Below are positions 1 through 22,994 of a DNA stretch of 32,247 nt, one piece after another. Under the pieces are notes generated by a model. That model saw only the letters and a program-made list of their open reading frames with translations. It was not told the origin of the DNA and ran no database searches. A program made the position numbers and the translations under genes. The stretch's first letter is position 1; every line of letters starts with the position of its first letter. Source of the DNA: Rhodohalobacter halophilus (GTDB taxonomy: Bacteria > Bacteroidota > Rhodothermia > Balneolales > Balneolaceae); NCBI RefSeq assembly GCF_001715195.1, contig NZ_MDWE01000039.1, forward strand, positions 1-32,247. Direction: 5' to 3'.

Positions 1-295
1 CCTCAATCACAAAATCCTAACCAGGTATTTCGTTTTTGAGACAGATTCCAAACTTACGATTTTCTGACTCCCAATGTCAAGGAAAATGTCAGAAATATTC
101 AGAAAGTTTTTAAAGGAACATCTTCCGGGAGATTCGCGCAATAGTACGCAGATTGGCTGCAATTCTTGAGCATTTCGTTTTCCCGAAAGGATTGTCAATA
201 TAGGGGGTAAACCGTATCCAAGTCAACCCATTTCCTCAACTTTTTTCGACTATTTTTCCACATCTGACTAAGCCCCCAGAAAAGCGCTTTTTGGT

Positions 296-350
296 GCAGG
301 TCGCAGGTCGCAGGTCGCAGGTCGCAGGTCGCAGGTCGCAGGTCGCAGGT
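296..350. repeat. 7-bp tandem repeat, about 7.9 copies
   Basis: The unit GCAGGTC is repeated head to tail without a mismatch from 296 to 350 (55 bases). It lies in non-coding DNA about 600 bases upstream of the TetR-like gene. A heptamer is not a multiple of three and no reading frame uses it. It is likely a variable-number microsatellite that changes length by slippage; no function can be read from the sequence. Confidence 0.95.
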
Positions 351-607
351 AAAAGTTTTGTTATTGGAATGATTAAATAAAATCGTGCAATTGAACGTGA
401 TGATTTAATTAGTACTTATTGAATCATAATCATCAACGTTTGATTAAACCGTTTCTTTGTGTTTGAAATACCGGCTGAGTGGGTGCAGCTTTTTGCATGG
501 AGAAAACACGGTTATCTCAAGTATTAAATTTGCACCAAACAAATCAGGTTGGGAGAGTTTGTGCAGTAGAACTACAGGGCCACCGAGGATGATGAAAAAC
601 GAGGCTC

Positions 608-949: not shown

Positions 950-1705
950 ATGAATTCTGTAGAGAAGCAACGCATTCAAAGAAAACAGACAATTATGACC
1001 ATAGAGACACGCTTAAAAATTAACATATCTGAAGCCGCAACGGAGCACTTTTTAATCAATCCGAGATTTACCATCCAATCGCTGGCCGGCTCATTAAACA
1101 TGAGTGCAGAGGATATTTTTGACCTGTTTCCAAACCGCCGGGCAATTCTAGAGTACTATTACGAGTCGCGTTTATACCTTTATCAAGATTCAATTACAGA
1201 AATTGACGGTTATGATCAGTACACCCTCAGCGAAAAACTGAGTCACCTTTTTTTAACTCTGCTCGACTCGTTTGAAGAGCAGAGAGAGTTTGTTCTCACT
1301 ACCTACAAGGAGTGGGTTGTTTGGAACAAGAGGAAAAGTGCGTTCATCGAGATCTTTTTGGACGAACTGAAAACCATCTTTACAAATGATCCGAAAACAT
1401 CTCGTTACTCAGCTATCATACAAAACCGGCTGCTTTGGAAATCGATCCTGCTTCAGTTCCACGGGTTAATAGCATTCTGGGCAAACGATTCGAGCCGGAT
1501 GAGGGAGAACAGCATGGCATTGGCCGACAAATGGACTTCGTTCATCGAAGAGATTTTCTACACCCACATTATCGACAAGGGATTTGATCTCGGAAAGTTT
1601 TTATGGATGAATGCATCCCTCAACAAATGTATAACCGGCGAAAATGTTACGTTTCCCACCCTATGTGGCCGAGAGCAAGAAATTCAGGAGAAAGATCATG
1701 AGTGA
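950..1705 (+). CDS. TetR-like transcriptional regulator
   Basis: Predicted DNA-binding regulator of the TetR/AcrR type. The N-terminal part carries a helix-turn-helix at about residues 41-64 (FTIQSLAGSLNMSAEDIFDL), followed by the family's typical F-x-NRRAIL and a tyrosine-rich helix. The remaining ~170 residues are helical and would form the ligand/dimer domain, which is too variable to name an inducer. The start is uncertain: the ATG at 950 has AAGGG immediately before it, too close for a normal ribosome binding site, and a second ATG at 995 begins right at the regulator domain and is equally plausible. The stop overlaps the ATG (1698) of the downstream ABC1 kinase gene by 8 bases, so the two were co-translated. 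The likely target is its own operon, by inference. Confidence 0.8.
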   Translation: MNSVEKQRIQRKQTIMTIETRLKINISEAATEHFLINPRFTIQSLAGSLNMSAEDIFDLFPNRRAILEYYYESRLYLYQDSITEIDGYDQYTLSEKLSHLFLTLLDSFEEQREFVLTTYKEWVVWNKRKSAFIEIFLDELKTIFTNDPKTSRYSAIIQNRLLWKSILLQFHGLIAFWANDSSRMRENSMALADKWTSFIEEIFYTHIIDKGFDLGKFLWMNASLNKCITGENVTFPTLCGREQEIQEKDHE

Positions 1706-3025
1706 TTTTCCATCCACCAAGTTTGACCGAGGGAAGATTTTTGCCAAAACCGGTCTTAAAGTGGGATCCAACTATGCAAAACACTATCTGAAATCCCTCA
1801 CAGACAAGAACGGAGACAAATCAGAACTGCATCGTCAAACCGCGGAAAACCTTTTAGTGAGTTTACGAAACTTCGGGGAACCGCACTGAAAATAGCCCAG
1901 TCGTTCAGCATCGATCAGGGGTTTTTACCCGATGAATTTGCTGAGGTAATGACCAAAGCACAATACAGCGTCCCGCCTATTAATCGGTCTCTGGTTCGCT
2001 CTATCATCAAAAAAGAACTTGGGAATTACCCGGAAAAGGTTTTCAAATCTTTCAACTCGGAAGCTGTTGCGGCAGCCTCTATTGGACAGGTTCACAGGGC
2101 CACCTTAATGGATGGGACGGAGGTTGCCGTAAAGGTTCAGTATCCGGGAGTTCGGGAGACCATCTCATCGGATATCGCCATTGCCAAATCGATCCTGAAA
2201 CGAATTGTTTCTAATGTAAACGCCCTCAATGAATACATTGATGAGGTCAGGAGCACTCTGCTGGATGAGACTGACTACCTCAAAGAGGGAACGTCGATGG
2301 AAACCTTTCACAATCGATTTGCTTCCGAACAGGTCGTAACGCCCCGGTGGATTGAAGAGCTCTCAACCGAAAGGGTATTAACAATGACTTACCTTGAAGG
2401 CAAACACCTAAAGGAGTTCCTGGAGTCTAATCCATCGGAGACAGAACGAAACCGGTACGGTCAACTGATGTGGGATTTTTTCCATACACAGATTGAAAGT
2501 GTGATGGACGGCCATTTTGAGTTTCATGCCGATACTCACCCGGGAAATTTTCTCTATACACCGGACGGTAAACTGGGTGTGATCGACTACGGATGTGTGA
2601 AAACATTTCCCAAAGACTTTTTCTACAACTACCTGTTGCTGCTCCCAACTCACATCAACCGGGATGAAGTGGCCATTGTGGAATTGTACAACAAGTTGGG
2701 AGTGATTGCCGGAGATCCTAATGAGAATAAGAAGGAGAAGCGTTTTTATGATTTCGCCCTGAACTATGGCTTCGCGTTTGCCCTGCCCTACCTGGAAAAC
2801 ACCTTTGATTTTGGTGATCCGGAGTACCGGGAGCTTATCCGACAGTACACCAAAAATACGCCCATAACCAATGAACCGCGAGGAAATAAGCATTTTATTT
2901 ATAGCACACGCGTTCATCTGGGACTATATCACTTATTGATGAAGCTGGGAGCTACAGTTCAAACTATAAAATCAAGAGAGGCAGTAGAGAGAACACTTGA
3001 AGGGTATGAGGAGAGATCTGCATAA
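1698..3025 (+). pseudogene. ABC1/UbiB (AarF) family kinase-like protein, frameshifted
   Basis: Member of the ABC1/AarF/UbiB atypical kinase family, linked in other organisms to quinone and lipid metabolism. The first 52 codons run from ATG 1698. The frame then breaks and ends at 1889, while the continuation lies in the -1 frame from about 1853 and runs to 3025. Adding one T to the TTTT run at 1852-1855 joins them into a 442-residue protein, a normal length for the family. In the joined protein I see the family KxGQ-like motif (KIAQ, ~65-68), the Ala-rich loop (AAAS, ~125-128), the ATP-site lysine in VAVKVQYPG (~146), the catalytic HADTHPGN (~277-284) and the metal-binding DYG (~297). The piece starting at ATG 1949 keeps the kinase core but lacks KIAQ. 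The cause is either a true mutation or a one-base sequencing error; all other motifs are intact, so any inactivation is recent. Confidence 0.85.
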
Positions 3026-3551: not shown

Positions 3552-5012
3552 TTAATAATTCGGATTCTCTTCAAGTTCAGAGTTGGCATTGAGGTTGTTG
3601 TTCCCAATCGGCGCCAATATTCTGTACGAATCAAACCTGATTTTAATGTCACCGGTTATCGGGTCCGGGATGTGATTACCTGTTCGTTTCAGGTCCCAGA
3701 AACGATGTCCTTCCATGTGAAGTTCACGAACTCGTTCATCCATCACTTCATCTTCGAACGAATCGACATCTACAAGTGCAGCTGCCGGAATTGGACCTGC
3801 ATTTCTGGCATCTTTCAGTTCCTGCAGTGCATCCACTGCCGCAGGGGTAACAGCATTCGCATCTTTAACGGAAGCTTCAGCAAGTATCAGATACATCTCT
3901 GAAACTCTCATAAAAGGAAGGTCATCGGCAAGATTCCCTTTGTCGCCATTGTATTTTGTTGAAGCAACTTCCAGATCATTTGCATTGTCACAACCTGACT
4001 CCCCGCAAGGTTTGAACCACCCATTTCGGTAGTCATCTGCATCAAAGAGATCCAATACATATTGAGTAGGAAGCTGAGCAACCCACTGAGCCGAAGTATA
4101 AGCGGCCGGACCATTATTAACATTCGATCCTGCAATCGGTTCCGTATTTGGATCTATCTCAAGCAAAAACATCGCTTCAGGATGTGCCGCTTCATTCTCA
4201 TTGAACATCTCTACGATATCATCTTCATCCTCTGTAAGAGCGGGACTCAGATCTATCGCATTCTGAGCAGCTGTTGCAGCATCACCCCAGTTTCCCTGAA
4301 ATAGCTCAACTCGTGCTCGTAATCCTTCCACAAACATTTCGTTTGCAATCGTTGGATTACTTACACCGGCCAAGCGGGTTTCAGCCTCATCCAGATCGTC
4401 GCTGATCCGATTATAAACTTCGTCTACTGTAGAACGAGGCCTTTCATCAGCATCCTCTACAGAAAAGACTGATTCTGTGAAGATTGGAACTCCCAAATTC
4501 CAGTTTGACTCGGGGCCTATATCATAGTTTCCGGGCTCATAACCGTAAACCTTTACCAGCATATGGTAGGCATAGGCTCTTACAGCATAAGCTTCGCCCA
4601 TTACCTGTTCACGTAATCCTGAATCTACCGCATCCGGGTCAATATCATTGATCAACTGATTGGCAATTTGAATTACATTATAGGCTGCACCATAACTGCC
4701 GATATGCGCTGTTCCGGATGTACCGGTTGCAAAGTTAAGAGCATCATATCTCGATGCGCCAACCCGCGTGTAGCTCTCGTCGGCAAGGGCACTTGGCCCG
4801 AGAAGATTTTGAGTCGTGAATGATGCACTCGCTCTCATCTCAGAATAGAGTGCATTTCGCAGCAATTCTACACCATCGGGCGTACCAAGCGCCTCTTCAG
4901 GTGAGATCGACGTGGACGGATCCACATCTTCCAATAGGTCGTTACATCCGGCAAACAAAAGTCCGGCTGCAAGGACTATCACAAAACTTAACTTGTTCAT
5001 TGTTTTCATCAT
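3552..5012 (-). CDS. SusD/RagB-family outer-membrane lipoprotein (operon 1)
   Basis: 486-residue SusD-type lid lipoprotein; it covers the partner SusC barrel and captures substrate at the cell surface. The signal peptide ends in the lipobox LLFAGC (Cys23). The N-terminal half has the TPR-like helices with the family signature AYAVRAYAYHMLVKVYGYEPG. The C-terminal half carries the RagB/SusD hallmarks MRVSEMYLILAEASVKD, then MDERVRELHMEGHRFWDLKR, ending in NPNY. It follows SusC after 15 bases and belongs to the same transcript. A two-cysteine loop (PCGESGCDN, around residues 330-340) is also present, in longer form, in the paralogue at 11613-13106. Substrate unknown. Confidence 0.96.
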   Translation of the reverse strand: MMKTMNKLSFVIVLAAGLLFAGCNDLLEDVDPSTSISPEEALGTPDGVELLRNALYSEMRASASFTTQNLLGPSALADESYTRVGASRYDALNFATGTSGTAHIGSYGAAYNVIQIANQLINDIDPDAVDSGLREQVMGEAYAVRAYAYHMLVKVYGYEPGNYDIGPESNWNLGVPIFTESVFSVEDADERPRSTVDEVYNRISDDLDEAETRLAGVSNPTIANEMFVEGLRARVELFQGNWGDAATAAQNAIDLSPALTEDEDDIVEMFNENEAAHPEAMFLLEIDPNTEPIAGSNVNNGPAAYTSAQWVAQLPTQYVLDLFDADDYRNGWFKPCGESGCDNANDLEVASTKYNGDKGNLADDLPFMRVSEMYLILAEASVKDANAVTPAAVDALQELKDARNAGPIPAAALVDVDSFEDEVMDERVRELHMEGHRFWDLKRTGNHIPDPITGDIKIRFDSYRILAPIGNNNLNANSELEENPNY

Positions 5013-5027: not shown

Positions 5028-8000
5028 TTAGAAGCGTACTTCAATTCCTGCATTGAATTGACGTTCTGTCGGATACGAAGCCGTGGTCACGTTTGTAAAG
5101 ATATCTGTCGTATCAAACGCAACTTCTGGGTCGTACCATGGCCATGCAGTCCACGTCAGCAGATTCACTCCGGACGCAAATACACTTACATTGCTCAATC
5201 CAAACTGATCTACAAATCGCTGCGGCAGATCGTAACTAACCGTCAGATTTTTCAACCGGATATAGCTTGCGTTGTAAACAGCTTGTGATCCCAGCTGAGT
5301 TCTGTAGTTATTGGTTTCTGCAAAATCAGAACCTGCAACAACAGCTCTTGGATAGTACGTCATATCGCCCGGCTCTCTCCATCGGTCTCTCGTTTCACTC
5401 GAAAGACTCCCGAGGAAATCGGGTGTGCGAGTAAAGTAGTAGTCGGTTGATGGGAATGCCCACTGGCCAAAACTAAAATTAAAGAATGCATCGACAGATA
5501 GCCCTTTGTAGCGAAATGTGTTACCAAATCCACCGACCGTGTTGGCAAATCCATCTTTGTAGTTCACGGCATCCTGGCTTTGTGTTGGCGTATAGGTAAT
5601 TTCACCATCTGCATCTAACCACATGGGTCGTCCGTCAGCCGGGTTTACACCTGCATAACGAGGAACCTGGATCTGACCAATGGTCTGACCCTCTTTCAGT
5701 GATTCAAACGTATCATCTGCATCTATGTCTTGCCCGTCGGGCAGCTCCTTGATTTCATTATCCATAAATGCCACGTTAAATCGGGTACTCCATACGAAAT
5801 CACGTGTTGACACATTTACCGTATTGATTTCAAATTCAAGGCCGGAGTTACGAACTTTACCAACGTTGTCTGTGTATTCTGTAAATCCACTTTCTGTTGG
5901 CAGCGGTCGGTCAAAGAGCAGCTGATTGTTATCCTTTACATAGTAATCAATAGAACCGGAAACACGCCCTTCAAGGAGTTCGTAATCAAGTCCTACATTA
6001 ATCTCTTGTGCTTCCTCCCAGGTAAGCAGCGGGTTTTGAAGCTGAGCCGGAACTACAGCCGTCCCACCCTGATAAGTTCCTGAAGCGGAATAAAGACTTC
6101 TGGAAGCGAAGTTTCCAATTGCAGAGTTACCGGTTAATCCAAATCCGGCCCGGAGTTTCAGGTCGCTGATATAATCGACATCAAAAAAGTCTTCCTGAGA
6201 AATCCTCCACGCACCCGATACAGATGGAAAGAATGCCCATCGCTGGTCATCACCAAATCTGGAGTGTCCGTCGTACCGGCCGGTAAAACTGATGTAGTAC
6301 CTCTCATCGTAGTTGTACTTCAGATTGGTAAAGTAACTTCCCAGTCTCCATTCGGAGTTTACACCGGCAGCCTGTGCAGGAGTAGCCGTCGCACTCAGTA
6401 CGCTGAAGAAAGGTACAATTCCCTCTCCCCTTGTTAGCTGGCTTTCGGCATAGTTTTGTCGATACTCAATTCCAACCAATCCGGATACATTATGAACTTC
6501 ATCAAACTGCTGGTTAAAGTTACCAACGAGGTTTGTACTGAAGTTTCTCACATTCCGGTTAGCAAAACTTACATATCCGCCCTGTGTTGGTGCGGCAATC
6601 GGAGAATCGTACCGTGTGTCCTCAGTATTTCTGTAGTCTACATTAAACGTACCGGTAAACGACAACCAGTCGTATGCGTTGTATGTAAGATTCGTGCTTG
6701 CAATAATCTGTGTTACAGCTATTTCCCGCTCCACTTCGTCCCGGATTACAGCCGGGTTATACTGTGTGGAGGTAGCTACAGCGAGGTTCGGGTTGTATGA
6801 CCCATCTGCCAAAAACGGAAAGGTGAACGGATTTTCAAACATCACCTGGGAAGTTGGACAGTTAACGAAGTTACCATCCTGGCAAACTCCAAACTGTGTA
6901 CTACGTGATACATTTGAACGAACCGACGCTCTGAACCTGTCTGATACCTGATGGTCTACGTTGGTCCGGAGATTCACACGAGAGAAATTAGAGTTCAGCG
7001 CTGTACCGTCTGTATCCTCATATCCACCAGAGAGATAAAATGTTGTGTTATCGTCACCGCCGGAAATATTAAGAGAGTACTTTTGGGTCACTCCATCTTC
7101 ATATACAAAATCCTGCCAGTTATAGTCCGACAGCTGTCCCGGATTATTGGGATCTTCTCCAAAGGTTCCTAAGTAAAAGGCTTCTCTATCCGCACGGAAT
7201 GCTTCAAATGCGGCTTCATCGGTTACGGGTACACCGGCTCGGTGCATCCACCCCTCAGCTGAATAGTCCAGGTATTCGTCTCTGTTCAGGTAATCCACAT
7301 TACGTGCCAGCGTACGCACACCGGTCTCTGCACGGGCAGTCACCTGAGTCTGGCCTGAGGTACCACCTTTGGTTGTAATAATGACAACACCGGCAGCCGC
7401 CTGAGATCCATAAATAGATGCAGCAGAAGCATCCTTCAACACCTCAATGGACTCAATATCGCTCGGGTTGATCGCATTCAGCGGAGAAGTACTTGTAAGA
7501 CCAGATTGCTGGTCAAATGACATCTGTACACCGTCAACAATGTAGAGTGGCTCTGTTGCGGCGTTGATAGATCCGTTACCGCGTACGGCAACTTTAAATG
7601 CACCGCCCGGGTTACCGGAAGTAGAGATAACATTCACACCGGCAGCACGACCCTGCAAGATCGATTCTGCATTTTGAAGTGAAACACTTTCTATTTCACT
7701 GGAACTAACACTGGTAATCGAACCGGTCAGTTCTCTACGGTTTGTAGGGGCGTACCCTGCAACCACAATTTCATCCAGTCCGGCTGCGTCCATCGACATG
7801 GCCAGATCAAATACATTTTCACCGGCCTCGATGTTTACTGTTTCAGTTACGGTTCTGTAACCTACATAGGAAAATCGCACCTCGTAGGTACCGACGGGAA
7901 CGTTGTCAATTCTGTACATTCCGTCTATATCTGTTGGAGCTCCTCGTTCGAGATCCAAGATCATTACTGTTGCACCCACAAGCGTTTCACCTGTAGACTC

Positions 8001-8097
8001 GTCAGTAACGGTACCCGTAAGGGTTCCTGTTTGTGCATGTGCCAGTCCGGCAAAACCGGAAATAGCCACAAGCAGCAACAGGCTCGTTAATGACTGA
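5028..8097 (-). CDS. SusC/RagA-type TonB-linked outer-membrane receptor, 5' end cut off by an IS3 element
   Basis: TonB-dependent SusC-family transporter, partner of the SusD at 3552-5012. In order: signal peptide core LLLLVAISGFAGLAHA, a carboxypeptidase-like beta domain (GTVTDESTGETLVGATV...), the LDEIVVAGY segment, the plug with LQGRAAGVNV, PLYIVDGV and IEVLKDASAASIYGSQAAAGV, then a large barrel ending in the aromatic VRF. The reading frame is open from 5028 into the IS end, but no ATG or GTG is available; the nearest possible start is a TTG at 8076-8078, which would remove the positively charged start of the signal peptide. Joining 8097 to 9446 (removing the IS and one TGA) gives M-I-Q-K-I-L-QSLTSLLLLVA, a 1028-residue protein. 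So the gene is most likely inactivated, and recently, because the rest of the frame is intact. A Cys pair (CQDGNFVNC) is shared with the paralogue at 13115-16270. Confidence 0.93.
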
Positions 8098-8125
8098 TGT
8101 TGATGCCTAAATACGGTTGACGGTT

Positions 8126-8989
8126 TTAGTTAACATGTACCATTTTGGTCGAAGTTAACTTCGACCAAATGTTGACACGATAATCAGGGTAGCTACCCTG
8201 ATTGAGTTCTTTAACAAATTGATCCGGAGACAACCTTGAGGGCAGTCCCCGGTGTGGTTTACTGCGGTTGTACAACCGCACCGCTTTGGCAACTCCTTGG
8301 CACAATGACCGGTAATTATCGGTTGTGTAATATGTCAGATAGTTGCTCTTGATCGTTCGATTGACCCGTTCACAGTAAGCATTTTGCCACGCGTAATGGG
8401 CCATACTATGCCTCAGATCCCGGCAGCTTAGATAGTTCTTATATTCCTCACTGGTATATTGAACTCCACGATCGGTGTGAATAATCAGCTTCCTGAGCTC
8501 TTGGCGATTCTGGCTGACAAAAGCCTTGTTCAAACAACGAATCTGGCTGGCACTACTCAAATCCCGGCTGCAATGACTGGCCAGTATCTGGCGGGTAAAC
8601 CCATCGATGACAAAACTCACGTAGTACCAGCGCCCACCACTCCAAACATAGGTGATGTCGGTTTGCCACACCTGATTCGCCCCGGTTATGCTTTTGCCCT
8701 CAATCAGGTTGGGTTTAACACCCTGCCCGGCCACAGTAAACGACCGTGGGGGTGTTTTTACCCGATAACCGCAATTAAGCAGCAACTGTTCGGTCCAGTC
8801 GCGCCCGCGAGGCATTTGCTCGCGCACCGCATAATAAATGTCCCGGCATCCCATTTGAGGGTGCTTCGAGCGCACCTGCGCTGCCAGCTCGGCAGTCTCG
8901 AGCAGATCACGCTGGGCTTTACGCAGTCGTGCAATACCCTGGTGGGCTCCCTGCCGGGTGATACCTTGCCAGTCAAGCATCTGCTTCAT
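8126..8989 (-). CDS. IS3-family transposase OrfB (DDE integrase core)
   Basis: 287-residue second frame of the IS3 transposase. It has the rve-type catalytic core with the three acidic residues visible: D111 in QTDITYVWSGG, D173 in IIHTDRGVQYTS and E207 in NAYCERVNRTIKSNYL, with the usual ~34-residue spacing between the last two. The N-terminal ~100 residues form the HTH_21-like linker region (HPQMGCRDIYYAVREQ). Its ATG overlaps the OrfA stop as ATGA (8986-8989). In this family the active protein is normally an OrfA-OrfB fusion made by -1 frameshifting; the OrfB frame is open back through the A9 run at 9047-9055, adding about 20 residues (KKVRLRCFEWFFSHKK...). Confidence 0.95.
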   Translation of the reverse strand: MKQMLDWQGITRQGAHQGIARLRKAQRDLLETAELAAQVRSKHPQMGCRDIYYAVREQMPRGRDWTEQLLLNCGYRVKTPPRSFTVAGQGVKPNLIEGKSITGANQVWQTDITYVWSGGRWYYVSFVIDGFTRQILASHCSRDLSSASQIRCLNKAFVSQNRQELRKLIIHTDRGVQYTSEEYKNYLSCRDLRHSMAHYAWQNAYCERVNRTIKSNYLTYYTTDNYRSLCQGVAKAVRLYNRSKPHRGLPSRLSPDQFVKELNQGSYPDYRVNIWSKLTSTKMVHVN

Positions 8990-9399
8990 TGGCCAGGGAA
9001 CCGTTTTTTTGTGCGAGAAGAACCACTCGAAGCAGCGCAGTCGTACTTTTTTTTTAAATCCTCGCCAACTTCCTCACTGGCCAGGTCGATAAACTTCTCG
9101 TAGTAATCGATCTGCATCTGTTTGTGGCCTACGGCCTGTTCCAGTTCAGCGATTCGCTGCTGCATCTGTTTGAGCTTTTCACTTTGGGAGTCTTTATCTA
9201 CCACAAGTACGGATCCTTTTTTATTATAGGTTGAGTATCGATAAATCCATCGGTAAATCGTGGTCGGAGAAACCATGTATTCACGTGAGGCAGCCGATGC
9301 GCTGAGTTTACCAGATTCTACAAGACGGACAACCTCTTTACGCAAGGTAGGTGAAAATGTGCGGCGTTGCCGGAGATATTTTTTTGACATAATATTCAA
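8986..9399 (-). CDS. IS3-family transposase OrfA (helix-turn-helix protein)
   Basis: 137-residue first frame of the IS3 transposase. The N-terminus is a HTH_Tnp_1-type DNA-binding domain (FSPTLRKEVVRLVESGKLSA, then VSPTTIYRWIYRY) that would bind the terminal repeats. It is followed by a coiled-coil/leucine-zipper region (KLKQMQQRIAELEQAVGHKQ) and the conserved YYEKFIDLASEE segment typical of this family. A second ATG three codons in (MSKKYL) is an alternative start. The last ~20 codons after the slippery A9 run are read only when frameshifting fails. Confidence 0.93.
   Translation of the reverse strand: MNIMSKKYLRQRRTFSPTLRKEVVRLVESGKLSASAASREYMVSPTTIYRWIYRYSTYNKKGSVLVVDKDSQSEKLKQMQQRIAELEQAVGHKQMQIDYYEKFIDLASEEVGEDLKKKYDCAASSGSSRTKKRFPGQ
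9045..9057 (-). promoter_or_regulatory. Candidate -1 ribosomal frameshift site of the IS3 transposase
   Basis: On the coding (-) strand the overlap contains a run of nine A followed by G (T run 9047-9055 on the + strand), giving the classic A-AAA-AAG slippery sequence in the OrfA frame. Slipping back one base here enters the OrfB frame with no stop before the OrfB ATG. This is the expected arrangement in IS3 elements. A second run of seven A (9004-9010) lies 40 bases further on and is a weaker candidate. Confidence 0.7.
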
Positions 9400-9442
9400 G
9401 TTACAAGTGAAAAATTATGTCAACCTATTTTAGGCACCTACA

Positions 9443-9462
9443 TGAAGTATCTTCTGAATCAT
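9443..9462 (-). pseudogene. Severed 5' end of SusC gene 1 (start codon and first codons)
   Basis: This is the start of the SusC gene cut off by the IS3 element. On the - strand it reads ATG (9460-9462) followed by codons for I-Q-K-I and then part of a Leu codon, before the IS boundary. A ribosome binding site (GAGGT) lies seven bases upstream of the ATG. Translation initiated here now runs into the element instead of the receptor. Confidence 0.9.
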
Positions 9463-9491
9463 AACTTACCTCATATGATGTTTTGATTAGT
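9463..9491 (-). promoter_or_regulatory. SusC leader element 1 with ribosome binding site
   Basis: On the - strand the leader contains ACTAATCAAAAC (9480-9491), then TGAGGTAAGTT directly before ATG. The same arrangement, with ATTAACCAAAAC and AGAGGT, precedes the SusC genes at 16270 and 27891. The spacing here is four bases shorter than in the other two. The leader still sits in front of the severed start codon. Confidence 0.6.
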
Positions 9492-10099
9492 GCAGAACAG
9501 AATCGATGAATGATTAGAGTGAACGATTTGATCACAAATGTCCTGCATTTTGGTTGATTTATATAGATGATTATTTCCTCCTTATAGCGGAGTCTTTTAA
9601 TACTATAGGGATATCATTTGATGAATAGATTGATGCAATGATCACTGTTTACAGAACATCAACCTCGTGGCAAGTATAGTTTTCGGTCAACCCTATGTCA
9701 AATATAATTCAACTTTTAAGACCTAAAGAAATATTCAATCCAGACTTGTAAAAGTGTATTAAACAACTACTCAAATAGATGAATTGCAGACAGATAGCTT
9801 TTTGAAACGTTCACTTATTTTAAATTTATACCTGATTTGTTTCACAATATTTAATGTGGATAAAAGAGAGTAAAAACGAAGTCACAAAAGTTTCTGTGGA
9901 TAAAACAGAATTTCTTTGCTTAACTCCGTTTCTATATAGACTCATCCTGATAATTAACTTTTATTTACAGACATTTTACTGCTGTATTAATATGTTACGT
10001 CCTGATTTATTGGTAATTTAGTACACAACTATTCAGCAAGGAGCTGGCCAATTCATTATTACAACTCTTACTTTTATATATCTACGATCGAACATCACT
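9492..10099. other. Divergent intergenic region
   Basis: About 600 AT-rich bases between the former SusC start (- strand) and the lipoprotein gene at 10100 (+ strand). It must hold the promoters of both, since they diverge. I find no open frame with a domain and no motif strong enough to call as a promoter. Confidence 0.6.
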
Positions 10100-13114: not shown

Positions 13115-16100
13115 TTAAAACCGAATTTCAATTCCAGCATTTACCTGACGCTCGGTCGGATAGGAAGCTGAGGTTGAGTTGTTATAAATATCTGTCGGGC
13201 TAAATGCTACCTCAGGATCATACCATGGCCATGCCGTCCAAGTCAACAGGTTTACCGCAGAAGCGTAAACTCTCACGTTGTTCAAACCAATCTGTTCCGT
13301 GAGGTTTGCAGGGATCTGGTAGCTGAGTGATACGTTTTTCAATCGAATATAACTTGCGTTATACATTGACTGTGTACTCAGCTGTGTTCGGTAGTTAGCC
13401 GTCCCAGGGAAATCGGTTCCTGCTAACATAGCACGTGGGTAGTATGTTATGTCACCGGGTTGTTTCCATCGGTCTTCAACCTCTGTTGTCATGTTCATCA
13501 GGAAGTCCGGAGTACGTGTAAAGTAGAAGTCCGTACCGGCAAATGCCCACTGACCAAAACTGAACTGGAAGAACGCATTCAGTGTCAAGCCCTTGTAGGA
13601 GAGTGTGTTTCCAAAACCACCAACTGTGTTCGCTACACCGTCCTTGTATTCAATGGCGTCATCAGCCTGAACCGGGTTGTATGTGATGTTTCCATCGGCA
13701 TCATACCACATCGGACGTCCGTCGGCAGGGTTTACACCGGCCCAACGAGGTGTCTGAATCAAACCAATTGGTTTTCCTTCTTGCAGGGAATTAAATGTAT
13801 TGTCTTCCCGGATAGGTGTACCATCAGGCAGTTCCAGAATTTCATTGTCAACAAGTGCAATATTGAATCTTGAAGTCCAGCTAAAGTTGTTGGTAGAAAC
13901 ATTTACTGTACTAATTTCAAACTCAATACCGGAGTTTCTGACTTTACCGATGTTTTCGGTTATTTCATCGTAACCGCTATCGCTCGGAAGTGGTCTACCG
14001 AAGAGAAGGTTTTCATTATCTTTCTGGTACCAGTCAAGAGAACCAAAAATTCTTCCTTCTAACAATTCGTAATCCAATCCTATGTTAAGTTCTCTTGCTT
14101 CTTCCCAACTCAAATTCACGTTTGCAAGCTGAGTAGGTCTGAGACCCGTATTTCCGTTATAGGAACCTGACGCAGAATAGAGTCCTCTGGATGCAAAGTT
14201 ACCGATGTTTGAGTTACCGGTTACACCATAACCTGCTCTCAACTTCAACTCATCCACAAATTCAACATCAAAGAAATCCTCTTCAGAGATTCTCCATGAA
14301 CCGGATACAGACGGGAAGAAACCCCATCGTTTCTCATTACCAAAGCGAGAGTGACCGTCGTAACGGGCAACTACGTTCAAGTAGTACTTCTCATCGTAGT
14401 TATACTTCGCGTTTGCAAAATAACTTCCCCGTCTCCATTCAGTTTTTATACCTGAAGCATTTGTCGGAGTAGCCGTAGCACTCAACACCTTAAAGAATGG
14501 GCCCGGAAGTCCTTCACCCCTGGTCAACATACTTTCTGAGAAATCTCGTCTGTACTCAGTACCTATCAGACCCGATACATTATGAACTCCATCAAATGTT
14601 TGCCGCATGTTTGCTACCAAACTTGTATTGAAGTTTCGCACATTTCGATTGGCAAAGCTTACCCAGCCACCTTGGCCCGGAGCTGCAATAGCCGATCTCC
14701 ACTGCTCATCTTCTGTATTCCTGTAGTCCATAGCAGCTAAACCGTTAAAGTTCAGCCAGTCTGTAGCCAAGTATACCACGTTCAAATTTGAAAGAATCTG
14801 AGTAACAGAAACATTTCTTTCCACTTCGTTTTCTTGAACTGCAGGGTTGTTTGGAAGACCAAAACGAGTACCGGGGTTATATTCACCACTTGCAGAATAT
14901 GGGAAACTCATCGGTGCCTCAAACATCGCCTGTGATGGAGGACAGTTAATAAAGTTACCATCCTGACAAACACCAAACTGTGTACTTCTGGAAACGTTTG
15001 TACCCACGGATGTGCGGAAGCGATCACTAATTTGATGATCAAGATTGGTTTTCAAATTCAAACGTGAGAAGTCACTCTTAAATGCCGTTCCCTCGGTATC
15101 TTCAAAACCACCGGAAACACGGAATGTAGTTTCTTCGTTACCACCTGAAACTGATAAATTGTAACGCTGAGTTACACCTTCATCAAAAATAAAATCCTGC
15201 CAGTCTGTATCACCCAAATTGGTTGACACTCCGGTAGATTGTAGTGCATCACTTATTGATTGCCCACCATTTCTGGCAGCAAGATAAGCAGTTCTGTCTT
15301 CGTCAGTCCAATCTGGTGAGAAGAAGAAATCCAGAAGATAATTTCTTCTATTTTCTCTGTATGCATCAAAGTCAGGCAGTGCTCCTGGAGCAGCATATTG
15401 CAATCCTTCGGCTAAATAGTCTACATATTGATCTGGTGAAATATAATCTACGTTACGAGCCAACGAACGAACACCGGTTTCAGCACGTGCTGTAACTTGA
15501 GTAGCACCGGCACGACCTTTTTTGGTGGTGATAATTACAACACCGGCAGCTGCTTCAGCTCCATAGATAGCTGCAGAAGATGCGTCTTTCAGTACTTCAA
15601 TAGACTCAATATCATCCGGGTTAATTGTGTTTAATGGTGATGTACTGGTCAAACCTGATTGCTGGGCAAACGAGATCTGCACTCCATCCACAATATAAAG
15701 AGGTTCAGTAGCCGCGTTTACAGATCCGTTACCACGAATGTTTACACGGAATGCACCCCCGGGGTTACCGGATGTTGATGTAACATTTACACCGGCCGCT
15801 CTACCCTGAAGCAGGGATTCGGGGTTCTGCAGTGTAACATCCTGGATATCCTGTGAACGTACACTAGAGATAGAACCGGAAATTTCACGCTTTGTTTGAA
15901 CCGCGTAACCGGAAACTACCAGTTCATCCAGGCCAATCGCCCCAACTTCCATTGCAATATCGAGAGTGGTTGTTTGTCCTGCATTTACCTGAACGGTTTC
16001 TCTATAGGTACGGTAACCTACAAATGTAGCAGTAATATTGTACGTGCCCGCCGGGATATTTTCGATTTCGAATTCACCGTTAATATCACTGGCTGCACCT

Positions 16101-16270
16101 CGTTCTAGTTCAACGACCAATACACTAGCACCGGGAAGAGATTCCCCGGTTGCCTGGTCAGTAACTGTTCCTGTCAAAGTCCCTGTTTGAGCATTTGCAG
16201 TACTTGAAAAAGCACTCACAAATAGCACAAAAAAAAGAGCTGACAAGGATAATAGTATCCTTTTCATCAT
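13115..16270 (-). CDS. SusC/RagA-type TonB-linked outer-membrane receptor (operon 2)
   Basis: 1051-residue SusC transporter, the intact paralogue of the IS-disrupted receptor at 5028-8097. Signal peptide MMKRILLSLSALFFVLFVSA cut near SSTANAQ; carboxypeptidase-like beta domain GTVTDQATGESLPGASV; LDELVVSGYA; plug with LQGRAAGVNV, PLYIVDGVQ and IEVLKDASSAAIYGAEAAAGV; barrel ending INAGIEIRF. The start is the first of two ATGs, with AGAGGT eight bases upstream; the second ATG is equally possible. Compared with the paralogue it carries about 35 extra residues around SPDWTDEDRTAYLAARNGGQ, just after the plug, in a region expected to form an extracellular or plug loop. It also has the CQDGNFINC cysteine pair. 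Substrate unknown. Confidence 0.97.
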   Translation of the reverse strand: MMKRILLSLSALFFVLFVSAFSSTANAQTGTLTGTVTDQATGESLPGASVLVVELERGAASDINGEFEIENIPAGTYNITATFVGYRTYRETVQVNAGQTTTLDIAMEVGAIGLDELVVSGYAVQTKREISGSISSVRSQDIQDVTLQNPESLLQGRAAGVNVTSTSGNPGGAFRVNIRGNGSVNAATEPLYIVDGVQISFAQQSGLTSTSPLNTINPDDIESIEVLKDASSAAIYGAEAAAGVVIITTKKGRAGATQVTARAETGVRSLARNVDYISPDQYVDYLAEGLQYAAPGALPDFDAYRENRRNYLLDFFFSPDWTDEDRTAYLAARNGGQSISDALQSTGVSTNLGDTDWQDFIFDEGVTQRYNLSVSGGNEETTFRVSGGFEDTEGTAFKSDFSRLNLKTNLDHQISDRFRTSVGTNVSRSTQFGVCQDGNFINCPPSQAMFEAPMSFPYSASGEYNPGTRFGLPNNPAVQENEVERNVSVTQILSNLNVVYLATDWLNFNGLAAMDYRNTEDEQWRSAIAAPGQGGWVSFANRNVRNFNTSLVANMRQTFDGVHNVSGLIGTEYRRDFSESMLTRGEGLPGPFFKVLSATATPTNASGIKTEWRRGSYFANAKYNYDEKYYLNVVARYDGHSRFGNEKRWGFFPSVSGSWRISEEDFFDVEFVDELKLRAGYGVTGNSNIGNFASRGLYSASGSYNGNTGLRPTQLANVNLSWEEARELNIGLDYELLEGRIFGSLDWYQKDNENLLFGRPLPSDSGYDEITENIGKVRNSGIEFEISTVNVSTNNFSWTSRFNIALVDNEILELPDGTPIREDNTFNSLQEGKPIGLIQTPRWAGVNPADGRPMWYDADGNITYNPVQADDAIEYKDGVANTVGGFGNTLSYKGLTLNAFFQFSFGQWAFAGTDFYFTRTPDFLMNMTTEVEDRWKQPGDITYYPRAMLAGTDFPGTANYRTQLSTQSMYNASYIRLKNVSLSYQIPANLTEQIGLNNVRVYASAVNLLTWTAWPWYDPEVAFSPTDIYNNSTSASYPTERQVNAGIEIRF

Positions 16271-16303: not shown

Positions 16304-16581
16304 GTTAAACTATTCAGCCTGAATTAACTGTGCTGTTGGAACTTTAATCTCGTTCTGAAACACCTGTTTAAATGAGCATGAATAGTTCATTGTTTAGCAG
16401 TTACGAATCTAATCGAAGAAATTACAAATTCAAAATTTTGTTAATGTTTTTTTAACATTTCAAATACCTACATAATCATCTATAAGTGTTAAAAAACTAC
16501 ATATCATGTTGTTAAAGGAAATTGAACAGAAATATGTTTTTTTTAGATCTGAGTTCAAGTAATAAGTGCAACACGAAAAGT

Positions 16582-16609
16582 AACCCTGAGGGGCGCGCCC
16601 CTCAGGGTT
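16582..16609. terminator. 28-bp perfect palindrome inside the IS30 left end
   Basis: A perfect palindrome whose half-site is AACCCTGAGGGGCG covers 16582-16609 and is followed by TTTT on the + strand. It lies between the left inverted repeat and the transposase ATG. It is nested in an outer 8-bp inverted repeat (AACACGAA 16570-16577 and TTCGTGTT 16629-16636). The likely role is a terminator or mRNA fold that shields the transposase from outside transcription. Confidence 0.7.
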
Positions 16610-16639
16610 TTCGGCCAAGCGGCTTATATTCGTGTTACT

Positions 16640-17493
16640 ATGCAAAAATACAAACAACTTGACCTTAACGCTCGTCATCAGATCAACGCCCTGCTGCAGG
16701 CAGGCCACTCACAAACCAACATCACGCAAATAATCGGAGTTCACAAATCAACGGTCTCCCGGGAACTTTCCCGCAACGTGCCCACCCGCGGACGCTATGC
16801 CAACGAGTATCGGCCGGAGGCGGCTCAGTGGACGCTGGAACGTTCAGGGTACTGGCGGGGTGAGCCACGAGGCGATTTACCAATGGATCTGGCGAGGGAA
16901 GGCCAGCAAGGACCCTATCACCGCCGGGCTTTACAAACACCTTAAACATGGCCGGAGACGGCGCAAAAGAGGTAATTATAACGACTCCAGAGAGATTCTT
17001 AATGGGCGTGTGGGCATCGAAAAGCGTCCGAAGGTCGTTGAGCAGCGCACACGTCTGGGAGACCTGGAAGCCGACTTCATGATGGGCAAAGCTCACAAGT
17101 CTGCCCTGCTGGTCATCACCGATCGGGCCACGCTTCTAACCCGGCTGAAGAAAGCCACCAGCCGGCAGACCGATTGCACCGAAGCCACTATTGAGCAGAT
17201 GCTGACCCCTCGACAGTGACAAGGGGTTTGCCAACCATCAGTCGATTGGCAGAACATTGGACGCGGATGTATACTTTACCCGCCCGTATACCTCCCAGGA
17301 TAAGGGCACGGTTGAAAACAGAATTGGAGTAATTCGACAGTTCTTTCCAAAGGGTACAGATCTGAGGGAGGTATCCGAGCGACAAATTAAAACCGTCGAG
17401 CGCCACCTCAACAATCGACCTATTCGAAAATTTGATTACCTTTCACCAATTCAACAAACCTTAAAACACCGCGCTGTTGCATTAGTGACTTGA
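16640..17493 (+). pseudogene. IS30-family transposase, broken in three frames
   Basis: Remnant of an IS30 transposase spread over three reading frames. The first frame (from ATG 16640) has the N-terminal HTH (LDLNARHQINALLQAGHSQT, STVSRELSRN). Around 16835-16850 the frame changes and about 50-60 residues normally found before VSHEAIYQWIW are missing. The second frame holds the first catalytic region (LGDLEADFMMGK) and stops at 17219. The third frame starts near 17209 with SDKGFANHQSIG (a damaged form of the usual SDNGKEFA motif) and continues through the Glu motif GTVENRIGVIRQFFPKGT to LNNRPIRKFDYLSP. Two internal deletions plus two frame changes mean it cannot make an active enzyme. Confidence 0.9.
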
Positions 17494-17760
17494 ACACAGC
17501 ATTTGCAATAATATCAGGCTCAAATATCACACACTCATTTTTATATAGGTCTTATGAAGCAAAGTCGATTATAAGATCAAACATTATGGTTCAATAGTAG
17601 TGTGAAGTAACGAACCGGTTCTGGTGTCTTTTGGGTGTTGTTATTGCTATTGCTTTTGAACTAATATCCATCCACGTAATATAATTTTGCCCCTGCCTTC
17701 TAACCGGTTAATTTTTATATTAAAATTTTTAATCAGGATTCTGAATTAATATTAAAGCGG

Positions 17761-18234
17761 ATGAAATACCTACTATTTCTATTATTCTTTATAACAGTCA
17801 GCTGCCAGCCTAACTCAAACTCGGTCTCAGCTATTGAGATTGATTATTTGCATGTCGATAACTTAGAGGAAGGGCATTGGATCGAAATAGACGGTGTGCG
17901 GTTTGAACATGTTAAAGCGTTCGAAGAAGTTGATGAACGGCTATTTACACTACCGGCTTCCAGAATAACAAGGGGAGCTGAATTCAGACAACAGGAGTTT
18001 ACAGAACCGATGGCCTCTATTAATATTGCTATTATGCTGGCCGGATACCTCCATAATATCAATGTTGCGGAAAATCTGAACGTCAGCCACGATCATACCT
18101 ACCGAATCATTAATACCCCGCTTCTTCATACTCAAGGAAAACTTCAATTTATCAGAACTGATTCCTCTGATATTGAGATATCCTACTCGGATGACTATCC
18201 GGCCAGAGTACAAGTCATAGATATTAACAACTAA
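17761..18234 (+). CDS. Putative small lipoprotein of unknown function
   Basis: 157-residue protein I do not recognise. It has a lipoprotein signal peptide with lipobox ITVSC (Cys15) and a Ser/Asn-rich linker. The mature domain is predominantly beta by appearance (GHWIEIDGVRFEHVKAFEEV, MASINIAIMLAGYLHNINVA, LQFIRTDSSDIEISYSDD). No catalytic motif is seen. It lies beside the decayed IS30 element, is preceded by 265 non-coding bases, and converges on the SGNH-lipoprotein gene, with only 32 bases between the two stops. It is single-copy in the window. Confidence 0.7.
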   Translation: MKYLLFLLFFITVSCQPNSNSVSAIEIDYLHVDNLEEGHWIEIDGVRFEHVKAFEEVDERLFTLPASRITRGAEFRQQEFTEPMASINIAIMLAGYLHNINVAENLNVSHDHTYRIINTPLLHTQGKLQFIRTDSSDIEISYSDDYPARVQVIDINN

Positions 18235-18266
18235 TATCTACCCGGCCATATCTGTTCAACATGGAG

Positions 18267-19718
18267 CTATTGAACTGAAAAAAGAGTTCCCGGGTAACTG
18301 TTCACATCAATAGGCTGAACTGACAACTTGAAGACCCGATTAATCAGGGTGATCAACTCATTGGTAACTAATGCCTGTCCGCGTGGATTTAGATATACAC
18401 CATCTGCAGAATAAATTCCATTTCGTGACCAATTCACACCGATATCCACTCCATCTATCAATATTTCTCCATCTGCTGCTTTTTGAATAGTGGCCGATAT
18501 GTCAAGCAGATGAACGCGATCACTATTTACAGACTGCATTTTTATCCAATCGTTGTACTCTGTTAAAATTTCCATGAAATAGGATTGCTGATTTTCTGTC
18601 AGCACGTGCACATCCGCTATCGGTTCTGTTTTTCCGTATTGATCGTTTTCTTTAAATAAATTCAGAAATGAATAGAGCAGCATTTCACCCTCCCTCATCT
18701 GGCGAATTTGTGGCAGCTCTGAACCATCTTCAAGAGTTACAACCGAAAGGTCAGAATCCTCGATTACCCTTGCACGAAATTGATCACCCCCATCACTGTC
18801 AAAGTCTATAAACGGTCTCTTCCCTCTCGTCTCACTTTCTTCAGACAAGTTGTACTCTCTCACTTGAGCATTAAATTCACGGTAGTAATCATTTAATGAG
18901 CCAATCTCTGAAAACGTAATATCAAATCCCGAAACCATATGATATGGAATTGTGGAAAAATAGGGGCCGTAGAGGGGATTAGAAACGGTCGTTACGATAA
19001 CATCACTCTCAGTTTCGCTCAGAATTCGTGTAATTAAGTCGTTAATTGAATCTCTGTATAGATCGAAGTGTGTGAAGCCAGTTTCCATGATTGTTTGCGG
19101 ATTGCTCCCACCGACACCTGTAGCACCATACATCAGGTAACCGATTAAATCGTCTGTCCCCTGGTTTAACAGAACAACAGACGGATCTGAATTAATCACA
19201 TGATCTGCTATCGATTGATCAGGAGTGATGGGAAGTCGGTCTGCAAATATATTCTCAACCTGATTACGCTCAGCATCCAATTGATAAGAGCGTAATCCCG
19301 GTACCGAATAGTTCTTTAAAAATTCGACCGGACCGTTCCAGACTTCAGGAAGTTCACCGTCAACTGTACTTCTAAAAGGAAAGTTTGATTGTCCAATCTC
19401 CCGGTACAGCTCATAAAAACCTGTTGTCTGCTCTTCAAATAGATTATAGCCGCGAGTGGATTGAACATCAGGTTGTAAAAACAGATCCGCTCCGTAGAAC
19501 TCATTAATCTTTATACCAAGCAGGTTGGGGTACGCAAAGTTCTGTTTGTCTGCAATTAAAACTCCATCCATAGCCCCGGAGCTAAATCCATCGCCAATCA
19601 CATAGAAACGTGAAAAATCGATTCCATCAAAATGATCCGCCTCCTCTTCGGGTTCAGGAAAGGTGTATGAACATCCTGTCAATAATATGAGTGCTATAAA
19701 AGATAGTGAGAGTTTCAT
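18267..19718 (-). CDS. SGNH/GDSL-fold lipoprotein with degraded active site, partner of the TonB receptor
   Basis: 483-residue lipoprotein. I start it at the ATG 19716-19718 because that places the signal peptide and lipobox (LLTGC, Cys16) at the N-terminus, followed by a very acidic linker; a longer frame to 19769 would bury the signal peptide. It resembles the Bacteroidota SGNH-hydrolase lipoproteins whose first block reads GNSLTAG: here VIGDGFSSG (~40-48) has Gly44 in the catalytic Ser place. Block II is SVPGLR (~138-143). Block III reads GTDDLIGY (~187-194) where the family has GNNDVLGY, so the Asn is Asp. Block V reads DGVYLNPRGQALVTNE (~439-454) with Tyr442 in the place of His. Fold kept, catalysis probably lost. 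The ATG is one base from the stop of the TonB receptor, so the two are translationally coupled; a substrate-binding lid role is inference. Confidence 0.8.
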   Translation of the reverse strand: MKLSLSFIALILLTGCSYTFPEPEEEADHFDGIDFSRFYVIGDGFSSGAMDGVLIADKQNFAYPNLLGIKINEFYGADLFLQPDVQSTRGYNLFEEQTTGFYELYREIGQSNFPFRSTVDGELPEVWNGPVEFLKNYSVPGLRSYQLDAERNQVENIFADRLPITPDQSIADHVINSDPSVVLLNQGTDDLIGYLMYGATGVGGSNPQTIMETGFTHFDLYRDSINDLITRILSETESDVIVTTVSNPLYGPYFSTIPYHMVSGFDITFSEIGSLNDYYREFNAQVREYNLSEESETRGKRPFIDFDSDGGDQFRARVIEDSDLSVVTLEDGSELPQIRQMREGEMLLYSFLNLFKENDQYGKTEPIADVHVLTENQQSYFMEILTEYNDWIKMQSVNSDRVHLLDISATIQKAADGEILIDGVDIGVNWSRNGIYSADGVYLNPRGQALVTNELITLINRVFKLSVQPIDVNSYPGTLFSVQ

Positions 19719-19719
19719 C

Positions 19720-22700
19720 TTAAAAGATTCCCGGATTATAGGTAAATGTTGCAAAAACGATAGAGCCAATTGCCGGACCGCCGAACATGTTGGTATATCT
19801 CCTCACGCCCATATTGGTAAATCCGGCTTTTATCAAACTGTTGAGCGCCGGAATCCCAACATTCAACTGAAAGTCGAAATGCCCGTACTGCTCAAGCCTG
19901 CCATCTAAAAAGGGACTTCGCCAGTTATGTGCAGCTCTGTGTCTGTAAATCATTTTGAAACCAATATTGGGAGCGATCTCCCGATTCCCCCACTCAACAT
20001 TAAACTTTAAAGGGGGTGTATTGAATCCCGGCACTAAGGGATCATCGGAATTATTTATCATTTCCGTTAATGTTCCGTTCAGCCCAAAAAAGAATGTTCC
20101 CGACTGCTGTTTCAAATCAAATGAGACCCCATGAATAGTTACCCAATCTGTGGCATTTCCGTAAACATAAAATCGATCGCTTTCAGCTGCACTGTTCAAT
20201 TGTCCCGCAGCAGCGTAAAGATCTATAGATGGGCTTGTTCGCGGCTTCACCACGCGGTGTAATCCAATAAATTGATCGTAAAAATTAACAAAATAGTTTA
20301 GATCCAGATAAAAATTGGAAGAGTAGAGACGTCTGTATCCAATTTCTATGGAGTGTGTTTTTTCCGGTTTGATACCATTAAAAAATCCCTCACCGATAAT
20401 ACCATTTTCAAGAGTATTTAGATGGATGAGCTCAGCCAGGGACCGCTCTACGTCACTTTTATTCAATTCGTTAATTACGATTTCGTTAAACTCTTCGAGA
20501 GACTGCTCAGTTACAGAGTTAAACTCCAGCTGATATGGCGATACAATTTGAGATAAACCTCCCAAGATTCGTGCATTTCCAATATCCTGGTTCAGAAACT
20601 GTTCACGTACCGTTGGAAACCTAAACCCATACTGATAGGAAAAAAGCAAATAGTGTTTATCAGCCAGCAAATAGTTTATTCCCAACTGCGGACTTACAGC
20701 CGTCCTAAAGTTTTCATTTTTATCTGCCCTTATAGCGGCAGATAATACGAGATTCTCATCTGATAGCTTTTTCACCGACTGTAGATAGGCACCATATTCA
20801 AAATTGGTAATTTCGTTACCGGTTGTGTCCGGGAAAAGCGTACCTCCTGAATTGAGCTCGTAATACCTGAATGAGATGGCTCCATTCAGTTCCAGTGAGT
20901 CAAATCTGTCTTTAGATTTAAACCCCGCCTCCACATGTGAGAGCTCAGAATTATCTCTGATGCCTGCTCCATCATCAAAATCATGACTCTTCTTTAACCT
21001 TTTAAACTCCGAGGCAAACTCTTCAGATCCCGGTTCAAGAAAGGGGCGAGCTGTTTGGTCCTGAATAAGGGTTACTCCGGAATTTGCAAAGTTTCGTGCA
21101 GCTATGCGATCACCCCTTGGTATCCCCATGAAAGGAATTCCTCTTTGGTAAGCCAAGCGATAGTCACGAAACCAGTCTTGATCGGATTTTGCAGATTCCA
21201 GTAACTGATCAGCCATTTTTACAACATCATACGAGTCACCCGATTGTTGCCAAGTTGTATAAGCTCTTGTGTACAGATATTCACTTCTCAATTCAGTGGT
21301 AAGCTGAAAAATTTCAAAACCCTCAAGCCTTATCCTGCTATCATCTGTATATAGGGTGTTCGTATATCCATATCTCCCTTCAAGTTTAAATTCCGAACTA
21401 TGCGTTGGCTTGAAATGAATTGAGCCTGCTGCTTTTCGGGTCTCTACATCATAATCTACCAGCTCATTTTCATTGTACCCGTTTCTTGTAACCGGCAAAT
21501 AAGAACCATCCGGTACACCGTCACGATCCACTGCCACGGGCAGATAGGTGAAGGACTCATCGCCATAAACATTTACTCCATTATACCCGTGTACGTCCCG
21601 ATGAGTCTCCCACGGTTCACCATATCCAATATTTTTGTAGTTATTTGCCTGCCAATCTGTACCCATGAGCCAGCTGCCGGTTATTTTTAATGCCAGACGG
21701 TCTCCAAATGATTCTGCATATCTGCCGCTAAAGTCAAACATTCCATCCCCCTCGGCAGCCCACTGGCTGCCGCCTCCCAATCTTAAATCATTGACTCCTC
21801 CTTTTACTTGTGCCGAGAAGCCGGGACTTTGAAATGGATTTTTGCTGTTAATATTCAGTACTCCGCCCATAGCACCCGGTCCGTGTAAAGAGGAAGCCGG
21901 GCCAAGAACCATCTCCATATTTGCAATATCCAGATCCGAAGGCCCCAATAGATTCCCTACCGGAAAACCTAATCCGGGTGCCTGGCTATCGATGCCGTCG
22001 GTAAGTTGAAGTACCCGGCTACTTGCCCCCGTGTTAAATCCACGAGTACTTATCGTCTGCATATTCATACTTTGTGTCGCTACATCCACCTCCCTGAGTG
22101 TGGATATCAGATCAAAAGCATCAAAAGAGGCCACCTGTTGTACATCTACACTGCTTACTCTTGAAATAGTCTGTGTAGACTGAAGTTCATCCCGGGTCAT
22201 CATATCTGCGGTTACGACAATATCCTCCTCCTGAAACATCCGTGGAGTCATCGACACTTCGATATTTGAAATATTATCAGAGTCAAAATTTCTTTCCGCC
22301 GGAAAATAGGCTACATGTGAAAATCGAATTTGAAAAGGCAGACTATAATTAAAAGTAAACCTAAAATGGCCATCTCGATTCGTAACCGTTCCAATTGGAT
22401 TTCCAACTACGATATCACTGTCATTTGAGAATATTTCAAGCTGAACATCACGTACCCGTTTTCCGGTTATCCCGTCTTTAACAACTCCCTCGATTTGAAT
22501 AGAATATGCCTTCTTCATTGTAACTATCTGAATACCATCACCGCCTGAATTGCCAAGATTAACCTCATTTCTCATGTAGTTTCTGTGAGTCAAAATAAGC
22601 CTGGTCTGATCTAAATTCTGAGCATCAATTATTATCACTCCATCTTCGCTTCCGGTACCCTCAGTAATTAATTCTCCGGTCCGGATGTTTACGAGACTGT

Positions 22701-22872
22701 ACATTACAGATGCTATTGGTAATCCTGTTTTATGATCCACAACTTCAATTATCATTTCTGAAGCACTATGCTGACCATATGCGACACTTTCAGATCTGCT
22801 CGTTTCTGAAAGGAAGATGGATAACAGAATAGTGAGGAACGATCCGGTTAGGAGTAAATAGTTTTTAGGCAT
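19720..22872 (-). CDS. TonB-dependent outer-membrane receptor (non-SusC type)
   Basis: 1050-residue TonB-dependent receptor, not of the SusC family. After a signal peptide (MPKNYLLLTGSFLTILLSIF) come two beta-sandwich domains in tandem, about residues 39-115 (MIIEVVDHKTGLPIASVMYS) and 128-210 (IEGVVKDGITGKRVRDVQLE), the second of carboxypeptidase-regulatory type. The plug follows (EDIVVTADMM, ISTRGFN, SDLDIANMEMVLGPASSLHG, GAMGGVLNINSK), then a long barrel ending in aromatic F. The SusC signatures are missing. The next gene is the SGNH-fold lipoprotein, one base downstream. Upstream, only about 60 bases separate it from the terminator after the SusD at 22995-24779, so it may have its own promoter there or be reached by read-through. 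Ligand not predictable. Confidence 0.93.
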   Translation of the reverse strand: MPKNYLLLTGSFLTILLSIFLSETSRSESVAYGQHSASEMIIEVVDHKTGLPIASVMYSLVNIRTGELITEGTGSEDGVIIIDAQNLDQTRLILTHRNYMRNEVNLGNSGGDGIQIVTMKKAYSIQIEGVVKDGITGKRVRDVQLEIFSNDSDIVVGNPIGTVTNRDGHFRFTFNYSLPFQIRFSHVAYFPAERNFDSDNISNIEVSMTPRMFQEEDIVVTADMMTRDELQSTQTISRVSSVDVQQVASFDAFDLISTLREVDVATQSMNMQTISTRGFNTGASSRVLQLTDGIDSQAPGLGFPVGNLLGPSDLDIANMEMVLGPASSLHGPGAMGGVLNINSKNPFQSPGFSAQVKGGVNDLRLGGGSQWAAEGDGMFDFSGRYAESFGDRLALKITGSWLMGTDWQANNYKNIGYGEPWETHRDVHGYNGVNVYGDESFTYLPVAVDRDGVPDGSYLPVTRNGYNENELVDYDVETRKAAGSIHFKPTHSSEFKLEGRYGYTNTLYTDDSRIRLEGFEIFQLTTELRSEYLYTRAYTTWQQSGDSYDVVKMADQLLESAKSDQDWFRDYRLAYQRGIPFMGIPRGDRIAARNFANSGVTLIQDQTARPFLEPGSEEFASEFKRLKKSHDFDDGAGIRDNSELSHVEAGFKSKDRFDSLELNGAISFRYYELNSGGTLFPDTTGNEITNFEYGAYLQSVKKLSDENLVLSAAIRADKNENFRTAVSPQLGINYLLADKHYLLFSYQYGFRFPTVREQFLNQDIGNARILGGLSQIVSPYQLEFNSVTEQSLEEFNEIVINELNKSDVERSLAELIHLNTLENGIIGEGFFNGIKPEKTHSIEIGYRRLYSSNFYLDLNYFVNFYDQFIGLHRVVKPRTSPSIDLYAAAGQLNSAAESDRFYVYGNATDWVTIHGVSFDLKQQSGTFFFGLNGTLTEMINNSDDPLVPGFNTPPLKFNVEWGNREIAPNIGFKMIYRHRAAHNWRSPFLDGRLEQYGHFDFQLNVGIPALNSLIKAGFTNMGVRRYTNMFGGPAIGSIVFATFTYNPGIF

Positions 22873-22932
22873 TTCGTAACAAATCGGTTGGAATGCTGTA
22901 AGTAGATAAAATTTCCACTAAAACGACAAATT

Positions 22933-22966: not shown

Positions 22967-22994
22967 TTTTTCGGTCATCTATATAAAGTTGACT

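Follow-up and report, generated by a model that had tools for sequence, protein, structure and literature searches.

The window analysed here, a 32,247-nt stretch from Rhodohalobacter halophilus, is a whole contig (C33) of a draft assembly (G000; 3.12 Mb, 92 contigs, 97.8% complete), which we compared with relatives including the congeners G023, G015, G008, G009 and G021 within its Balneolaceae genus. It carries a SusC gene (susC1) with its SusD1 partner, the SusC body being cut off from its start codon by an IS3-family element (Table 1), and, next door, a paralogous pair, SusC2 and SusD2, both with open frames. SusC1 and SusC2 share orientation and are 67% and 65% identical over two matched stretches. 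An apparent ribosomal RNA operon end at window positions 1–362, guessed by eye, was dropped as Rfam gave no match at gathering score in the window.

Table 1 Features of the interrupted susC1 locus (window coordinates).
Feature	Position	Strand	Evidence
SusD1 partner gene	3552–5012	-	PF07980, PF14322
susC1 body, cut off from start codon	5028–8097	-	TIGR04056, 793 bits, profile positions 2–981 of 981; no internal stop
Target duplication TGA, left copy	8095–8097		
IS3-family element, 1345 bp, TG...CA ends	8098–9442	-	ends, IS3 profile, absence from G023 site
End repeat, orfB side, facing susC body	8098–8121		
orfB, integrase core with D, D and E	8126–8989	-	PF00665, 2e-21
Second palindrome, 26 bp, perfect, near 3' end of orfB	8144–8169	-	
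First palindrome, near 3' end of orfB	8181–8204	-	
orfA, transposase helix-turn-helix, ATG at 9390	8986–9390	-	PF01527
A9G run, putative -1 frameshift site, orfA to orfB	9046–9055	-	run also in 6/6 other full-length copies
End repeat, orfA side, containing TAA 9432–9430	9419–9442		
Target duplication TGA, right copy	9443–9445		
Native susC1 start, ATG 9460–9462 and first codons	9443–9462	-	same sequence in G023
GAGGT, ribosome-binding-like, 5 nt before susC1 ATG	9468–9472	-	
Promoter-like TTGACA-17-TATACT upstream of susC1	9673–9701	-	11/12; unchanged in G023
SusC2, intact paralogue	13115–16270	-	open frame with ATG, 1051 aa

Joining the two flanks with a single TGA gives MIQKILQSLTSLLLLVAISGFAGLAHAQTG, a frame of 1028 codons with zero internal stops which runs in frame to the ATG at 9460–9462 and opens with the signal peptide MIQKILQSLTSLLLLVAISGFAGLAHAQ, the insertion point lying six codons downstream of the ATG. 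An earlier note on this DNA had proposed just such a split by an IS3 element and such a join, and both proposals are confirmed by an exact empty site: a 46-mer across the join was found with 0 mismatches in congener G023, whilst none with up to 3 mismatches was present in the other 27 of the 28 genus genomes searched, the source genome included. The leader and gene head of the joined window align with G023 without a gap over 1042 nt (957 identical, 92%), the opening 120 nt of susC, taken in 40-base bins, agree at 40, 38 and 39 positions, and the G023 SusC is identical to the joined SusC1 in its first 52 residues. The closest full-length orthologue, from G015 (74% identity), begins MSKKILRSLSSLVFVLTFCAFSGLAYAQTG and has the same arrangement of ATG and signal peptide. 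The N-terminus is therefore shared with G023 and G015, and the earlier note's two counter-indications, a natural TTG start in relatives or a joined N-terminus without homologue, did not appear in a survey which took the first ATG at each locus only, so that TTG starts may still occur elsewhere. GAGGT lies near the first ATG at 12 of 29 homologous loci within 40 nt and at 11 of 29 within 20 nt (L007 and L017 are cut by contig ends). The locus is a clean case of an ancestral start that was deduced on sequence grounds only and then confirmed through the empty site of a relative.

Two details of the earlier description needed amending. The frame at 5028–8097 had been said to lack ATG and GTG, but a GTG at 8069–8067 and several ATGs (the first at 7964–7962) are present, although all of them fall inside or after the signal peptide. 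Similarly, the frame given as 1016 residues does run without an internal stop, but the stop-free frame extends into the element (5031–8129 in the list of open reading frames, 1033 codons).

The element itself is complete and codes in the direction of susC1, as had been claimed. Its terminal inverted repeats match at 19 of 24 end positions, compared with 18–19 of 24 in all six other full-length copies found in relatives, which share its ends and its A9G run and are within 1 bp of its length. A -1 frameshift at this run would join orfA and orfB, putatively, into an open OrfAB of 421 residues which scores 199 bits against the NCBIfam transpos_IS3 profile (cut-off 160), whereas orfB alone reaches 152.8 bits and falls below it. 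These features support membership of the IS3 family, and the element resembles IS911/IS2-type members in its TG...CA ends, overlapping frames, A-run/G site, integrase core and 3-bp duplication. It differs from usual IS3 elements in two respects, a pair of palindromes near the 3' end of orfB and the spacing within the DDE triad, where the second D and the E are separated by 33 residues, here and likewise in six of six full-length relatives (L112–L118 set). The usual IS3 spacing is 35.

Hits to orfB (E 1e-40) occurred in seven of 58 relatives and the element DNA found matches in 14 of the 128 genomes searched in the order, the source genome counting in both; in that genome there is a single full copy, besides which one end of the element has a partial match of 38 bases. 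The element DNA had no match in G023, nor in a plasmid collection. Among the five full-length copies in relatives with both flanks, three show target duplications (GCG, CCT and GAC) and two show no match, the sixth copy sitting at a contig end outside this count. By eye, none of the open reading frames listed at the insertion joins of these five copies (L038, L052–L055) was a susC, and we therefore claim no targeting of susC starts. A search around L003, L121 and L122 for small non-autonomous relatives recovered no second matching end, at any length, within 700 bases.

We know of no description of such paired palindromes where an IS3-family orfB ends. Across 14 distinct copies of the element tail, standard pairs occupy 91.8% of 279 cells in the two hairpins, and shifting the hairpin partners reduces pairing to at most 48.7%. 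Changes on both sides of a pair were seen in 4 of 20 pairs against a shuffle mean of 1.1, with 3 of 500 shuffles reaching four, and the window copy is predicted to fold with a z of -5.0. Conservation is not uniform, as L114 disrupts much of the first hairpin and several pairs are lost in L117 and L127. The comparison points to palindromes that are largely conserved, in part via paired changes; that they insulate the element from flanking transcription is a guess on our part. In copy L125 the palindromes are kept through paired changes which alter the encoded protein.

Translation from the native ATG of susC1 would read MIQKILHVGA and then meet a TAA inside the end repeat, after ten codons and 39 nt before the orfA ATG. 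Behind the element, the first in-frame start among ATG, GTG and TTG is the TTG at 8078–8076, followed by the GTG at 8069, both within the signal peptide; no in-frame ATG there preserves the signal peptide. As a scan for promoters found six sites against 5.6 expected, i.e. chance level, the 11/12 promoter-like site upstream of susC1 rests on its identity in G023, and because it is unchanged there, transcription probably enters the element. Read-through RNA into susC1, which the earlier note had raised, is possible, and would traverse the whole element and two hairpins; since it reaches no suitable start codon behind the element, it would yield no complete signal peptide. Weak initiation from TTG 8078 could occur.

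We consider it very probable that one IS3-family element transposed, in the ordinary way, into the codons for the susC1 signal peptide once this lineage and that of G023 had separated, duplicating 3 bp and leaving SusC1 lost or present in traces only. Transcripts from the susC1 promoter would run into the element, ribosomes starting at the native ATG would stop in the end repeat, and the remaining susC1 would have no start giving a full signal peptide, so the insertion is likely to amount to loss of this SusC. SusD1 would then be deprived of its channel, with SusC2–SusD2 next door still able to work, and no return is expected, save through rare precise loss of the element.

The timing can be constrained by the absence of stops in the susC1 body. 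The source genome differs from G023 at 30 of 636 intergenic positions and at 48 of 490 fourfold sites in SusC2, and a random substitution in susC1 has a 3.6% chance of producing a stop. Assigning half of this divergence to the source branch and counting substitutions only, 2.6 to 5.4 stops would be expected had susC1 been free over the whole branch; none was observed (Poisson chance of zero 0.074 to 0.004). Because no stops are found where 2.6 to 5.4 are expected, the insertion probably postdates most of the branch since G023, or else the susC1 body is still under selection. The recency asserted in the earlier note is therefore supported, both by the empty site in a congener and by the stop-free body, whilst continued expression would likewise leave a fully open body.

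An alternative is a rewiring, in which SusC1 would now be driven by the element's own or a hybrid promoter and start at TTG 8078 with a shortened signal peptide. The common direction of element and susC1 and the open body would suit this arrangement, as would the outward-facing -35 that an excerpt of PMC9330008 describes for the right end repeat of IS911. However, the promoter scan placed no minus-strand site between 8098 and the susC body, the two stable hairpins lie upstream, and the shortened leader would lack the N-terminal 12 residues together with their lysine, and we regard this rewiring as very unlikely. A fault in the assembly, by which the element was wrongly fused to susC, might be suspected in a draft of so many contigs, but the element is single-copy in the assembly, its target duplication is exact and the right flank runs collinear with G023 for 6757 nt (95.7%), which makes an artefact scarcely credible.

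The earlier note had also suggested an on/off switch, in which the element would precisely leave and return, toggling SusC1 within the population, and this suggestion found no support. It fits with the intact paralogue next door and the open susC1 body, and within the same family precise excision aided by an excision-enhancer protein is described for IS629 (passages of PMC9330008). Against it, the source assembly contains one full copy only and, when searched, no empty allele of the site. IS911 and IS2 transpose by copy-out-paste-in according to passages of PMC9330008 and PMC6350997, so the donor copy would stay and the donor gene would not be restored, and a review (PMC11868660, as excerpted) describes IS events as being of low frequency and running in one direction as a rule, an exception apart. 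In Bacteroides caccae, likewise a Bacteroidota-group bacterium in which an IS adjoins a susC at its 5' end, the frequency of IS614 upstream of susC varies across isolates (excerpt of PMC7260799), which might be taken to favour the switch, but that case is one of strain turnover with no excision. There the IS lies upstream of susC and is one of several promoter-adding insertions, according to the same excerpt, whereas here the signal-peptide codons are split and one assembly is known. Since B. caccae isolates with and without the IS are reported in that excerpt, it is plausible by analogy that the present insertion segregates in its source population. DNA rearrangement also selects the expressed SusC/SusD system in Bacteroides fragilis, as could apply here, but it does so by site-specific inversion (as mentioned in PMC12632263); a search for invertible repeats around the promoter and 5' end of susC1 found inverted repeats in 8000–9600 only inside the element or its ends, and SusC1 and SusC2 are co-oriented. 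Overall we hold a reversible switch to be highly improbable. A neat IS disruption does not by itself make a switch, and a complete element facing an uninterrupted site in a related species leads us to read the locus as an ordinary, fairly recent knock-out rather than a proven switch.

Comparison with G023 also revealed a sharp change of identity within susC itself. The promoter region and head of SusC1 are common to the G023 gene (L048 13779–16847), with 100, 87 and 75% identity in successive 40-residue blocks, but behind the head identity drops and the bodies share 34%. The G023 body is 62% like one in G008 (the one match among 27 other genus genomes at E 1e-150), and the adjoining G023 SusD shares 29% identity with SusD2 and 27% with SusD1. 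The SusC1 body is 76% like that of G015, whose head is only 58% like the SusC1 head. SusC2 shows the reverse, being 95% identical to its G023 counterpart, yet the DNA is collinear only to 16193 (codon 26), and its leader and signal peptide differ from G023 and resemble G009 (85% over 163 nt). Similarly, the genes of G009 (L022) and G021 (L025) share 87% identity in their bodies and 45% in their heads. In 496 non-independent pairs of 32 proteins (from the 33 nearest to SusC1, L028 being dropped for lacking the motif), the head-minus-body difference averaged 0.9 (sd 11.6), with extremes of +49 for SusC1/G023 and -42 for G009/G021.

In three comparisons head and body thus point to different closest relatives, and these mismatches suggest recurrent exchange, in which homologous recombination would supply an existing head with new SusC bodies and SusD partners, or an existing body with a new head. 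Whether susC heads in this genus (leader and signal peptide, either alone or together with the CarboxypepD-like domain) form an exchangeable module, allowing expression control and substrate specificity to be reshuffled, with the insertion having disabled one such head, seems to us evenly balanced. Such exchange bears on how uptake specificity may change while regulation is kept. Among the papers listed by our literature search, none described this locus or an exchange between susC heads and bodies in Balneolaceae.

Several smaller differences were noted around the two pairs. Upstream of SusC2, a 54-nt block (16405–16458) is kept at 93% in G023 and 85% in G009 within a leader that is otherwise not kept, and is possibly a promoter or operator. 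Beyond it, a stretch of ca. 12 kb (window 16459–28720; TonB receptor, lipoprotein, SusC/SusD) has no collinear G023 match between the same neighbours, and a partial IS30-family transposase (16797–17219) sits at its edge. In the window as well as in G015, G003 and G006, a TetR–ABC1 kinase pair (window 950–3025; L109 5929–7981) adjoins SusC/SusD genes, but in G023 it lies beside what appear by eye to be ribosomal protein genes, which points to local rearrangement.
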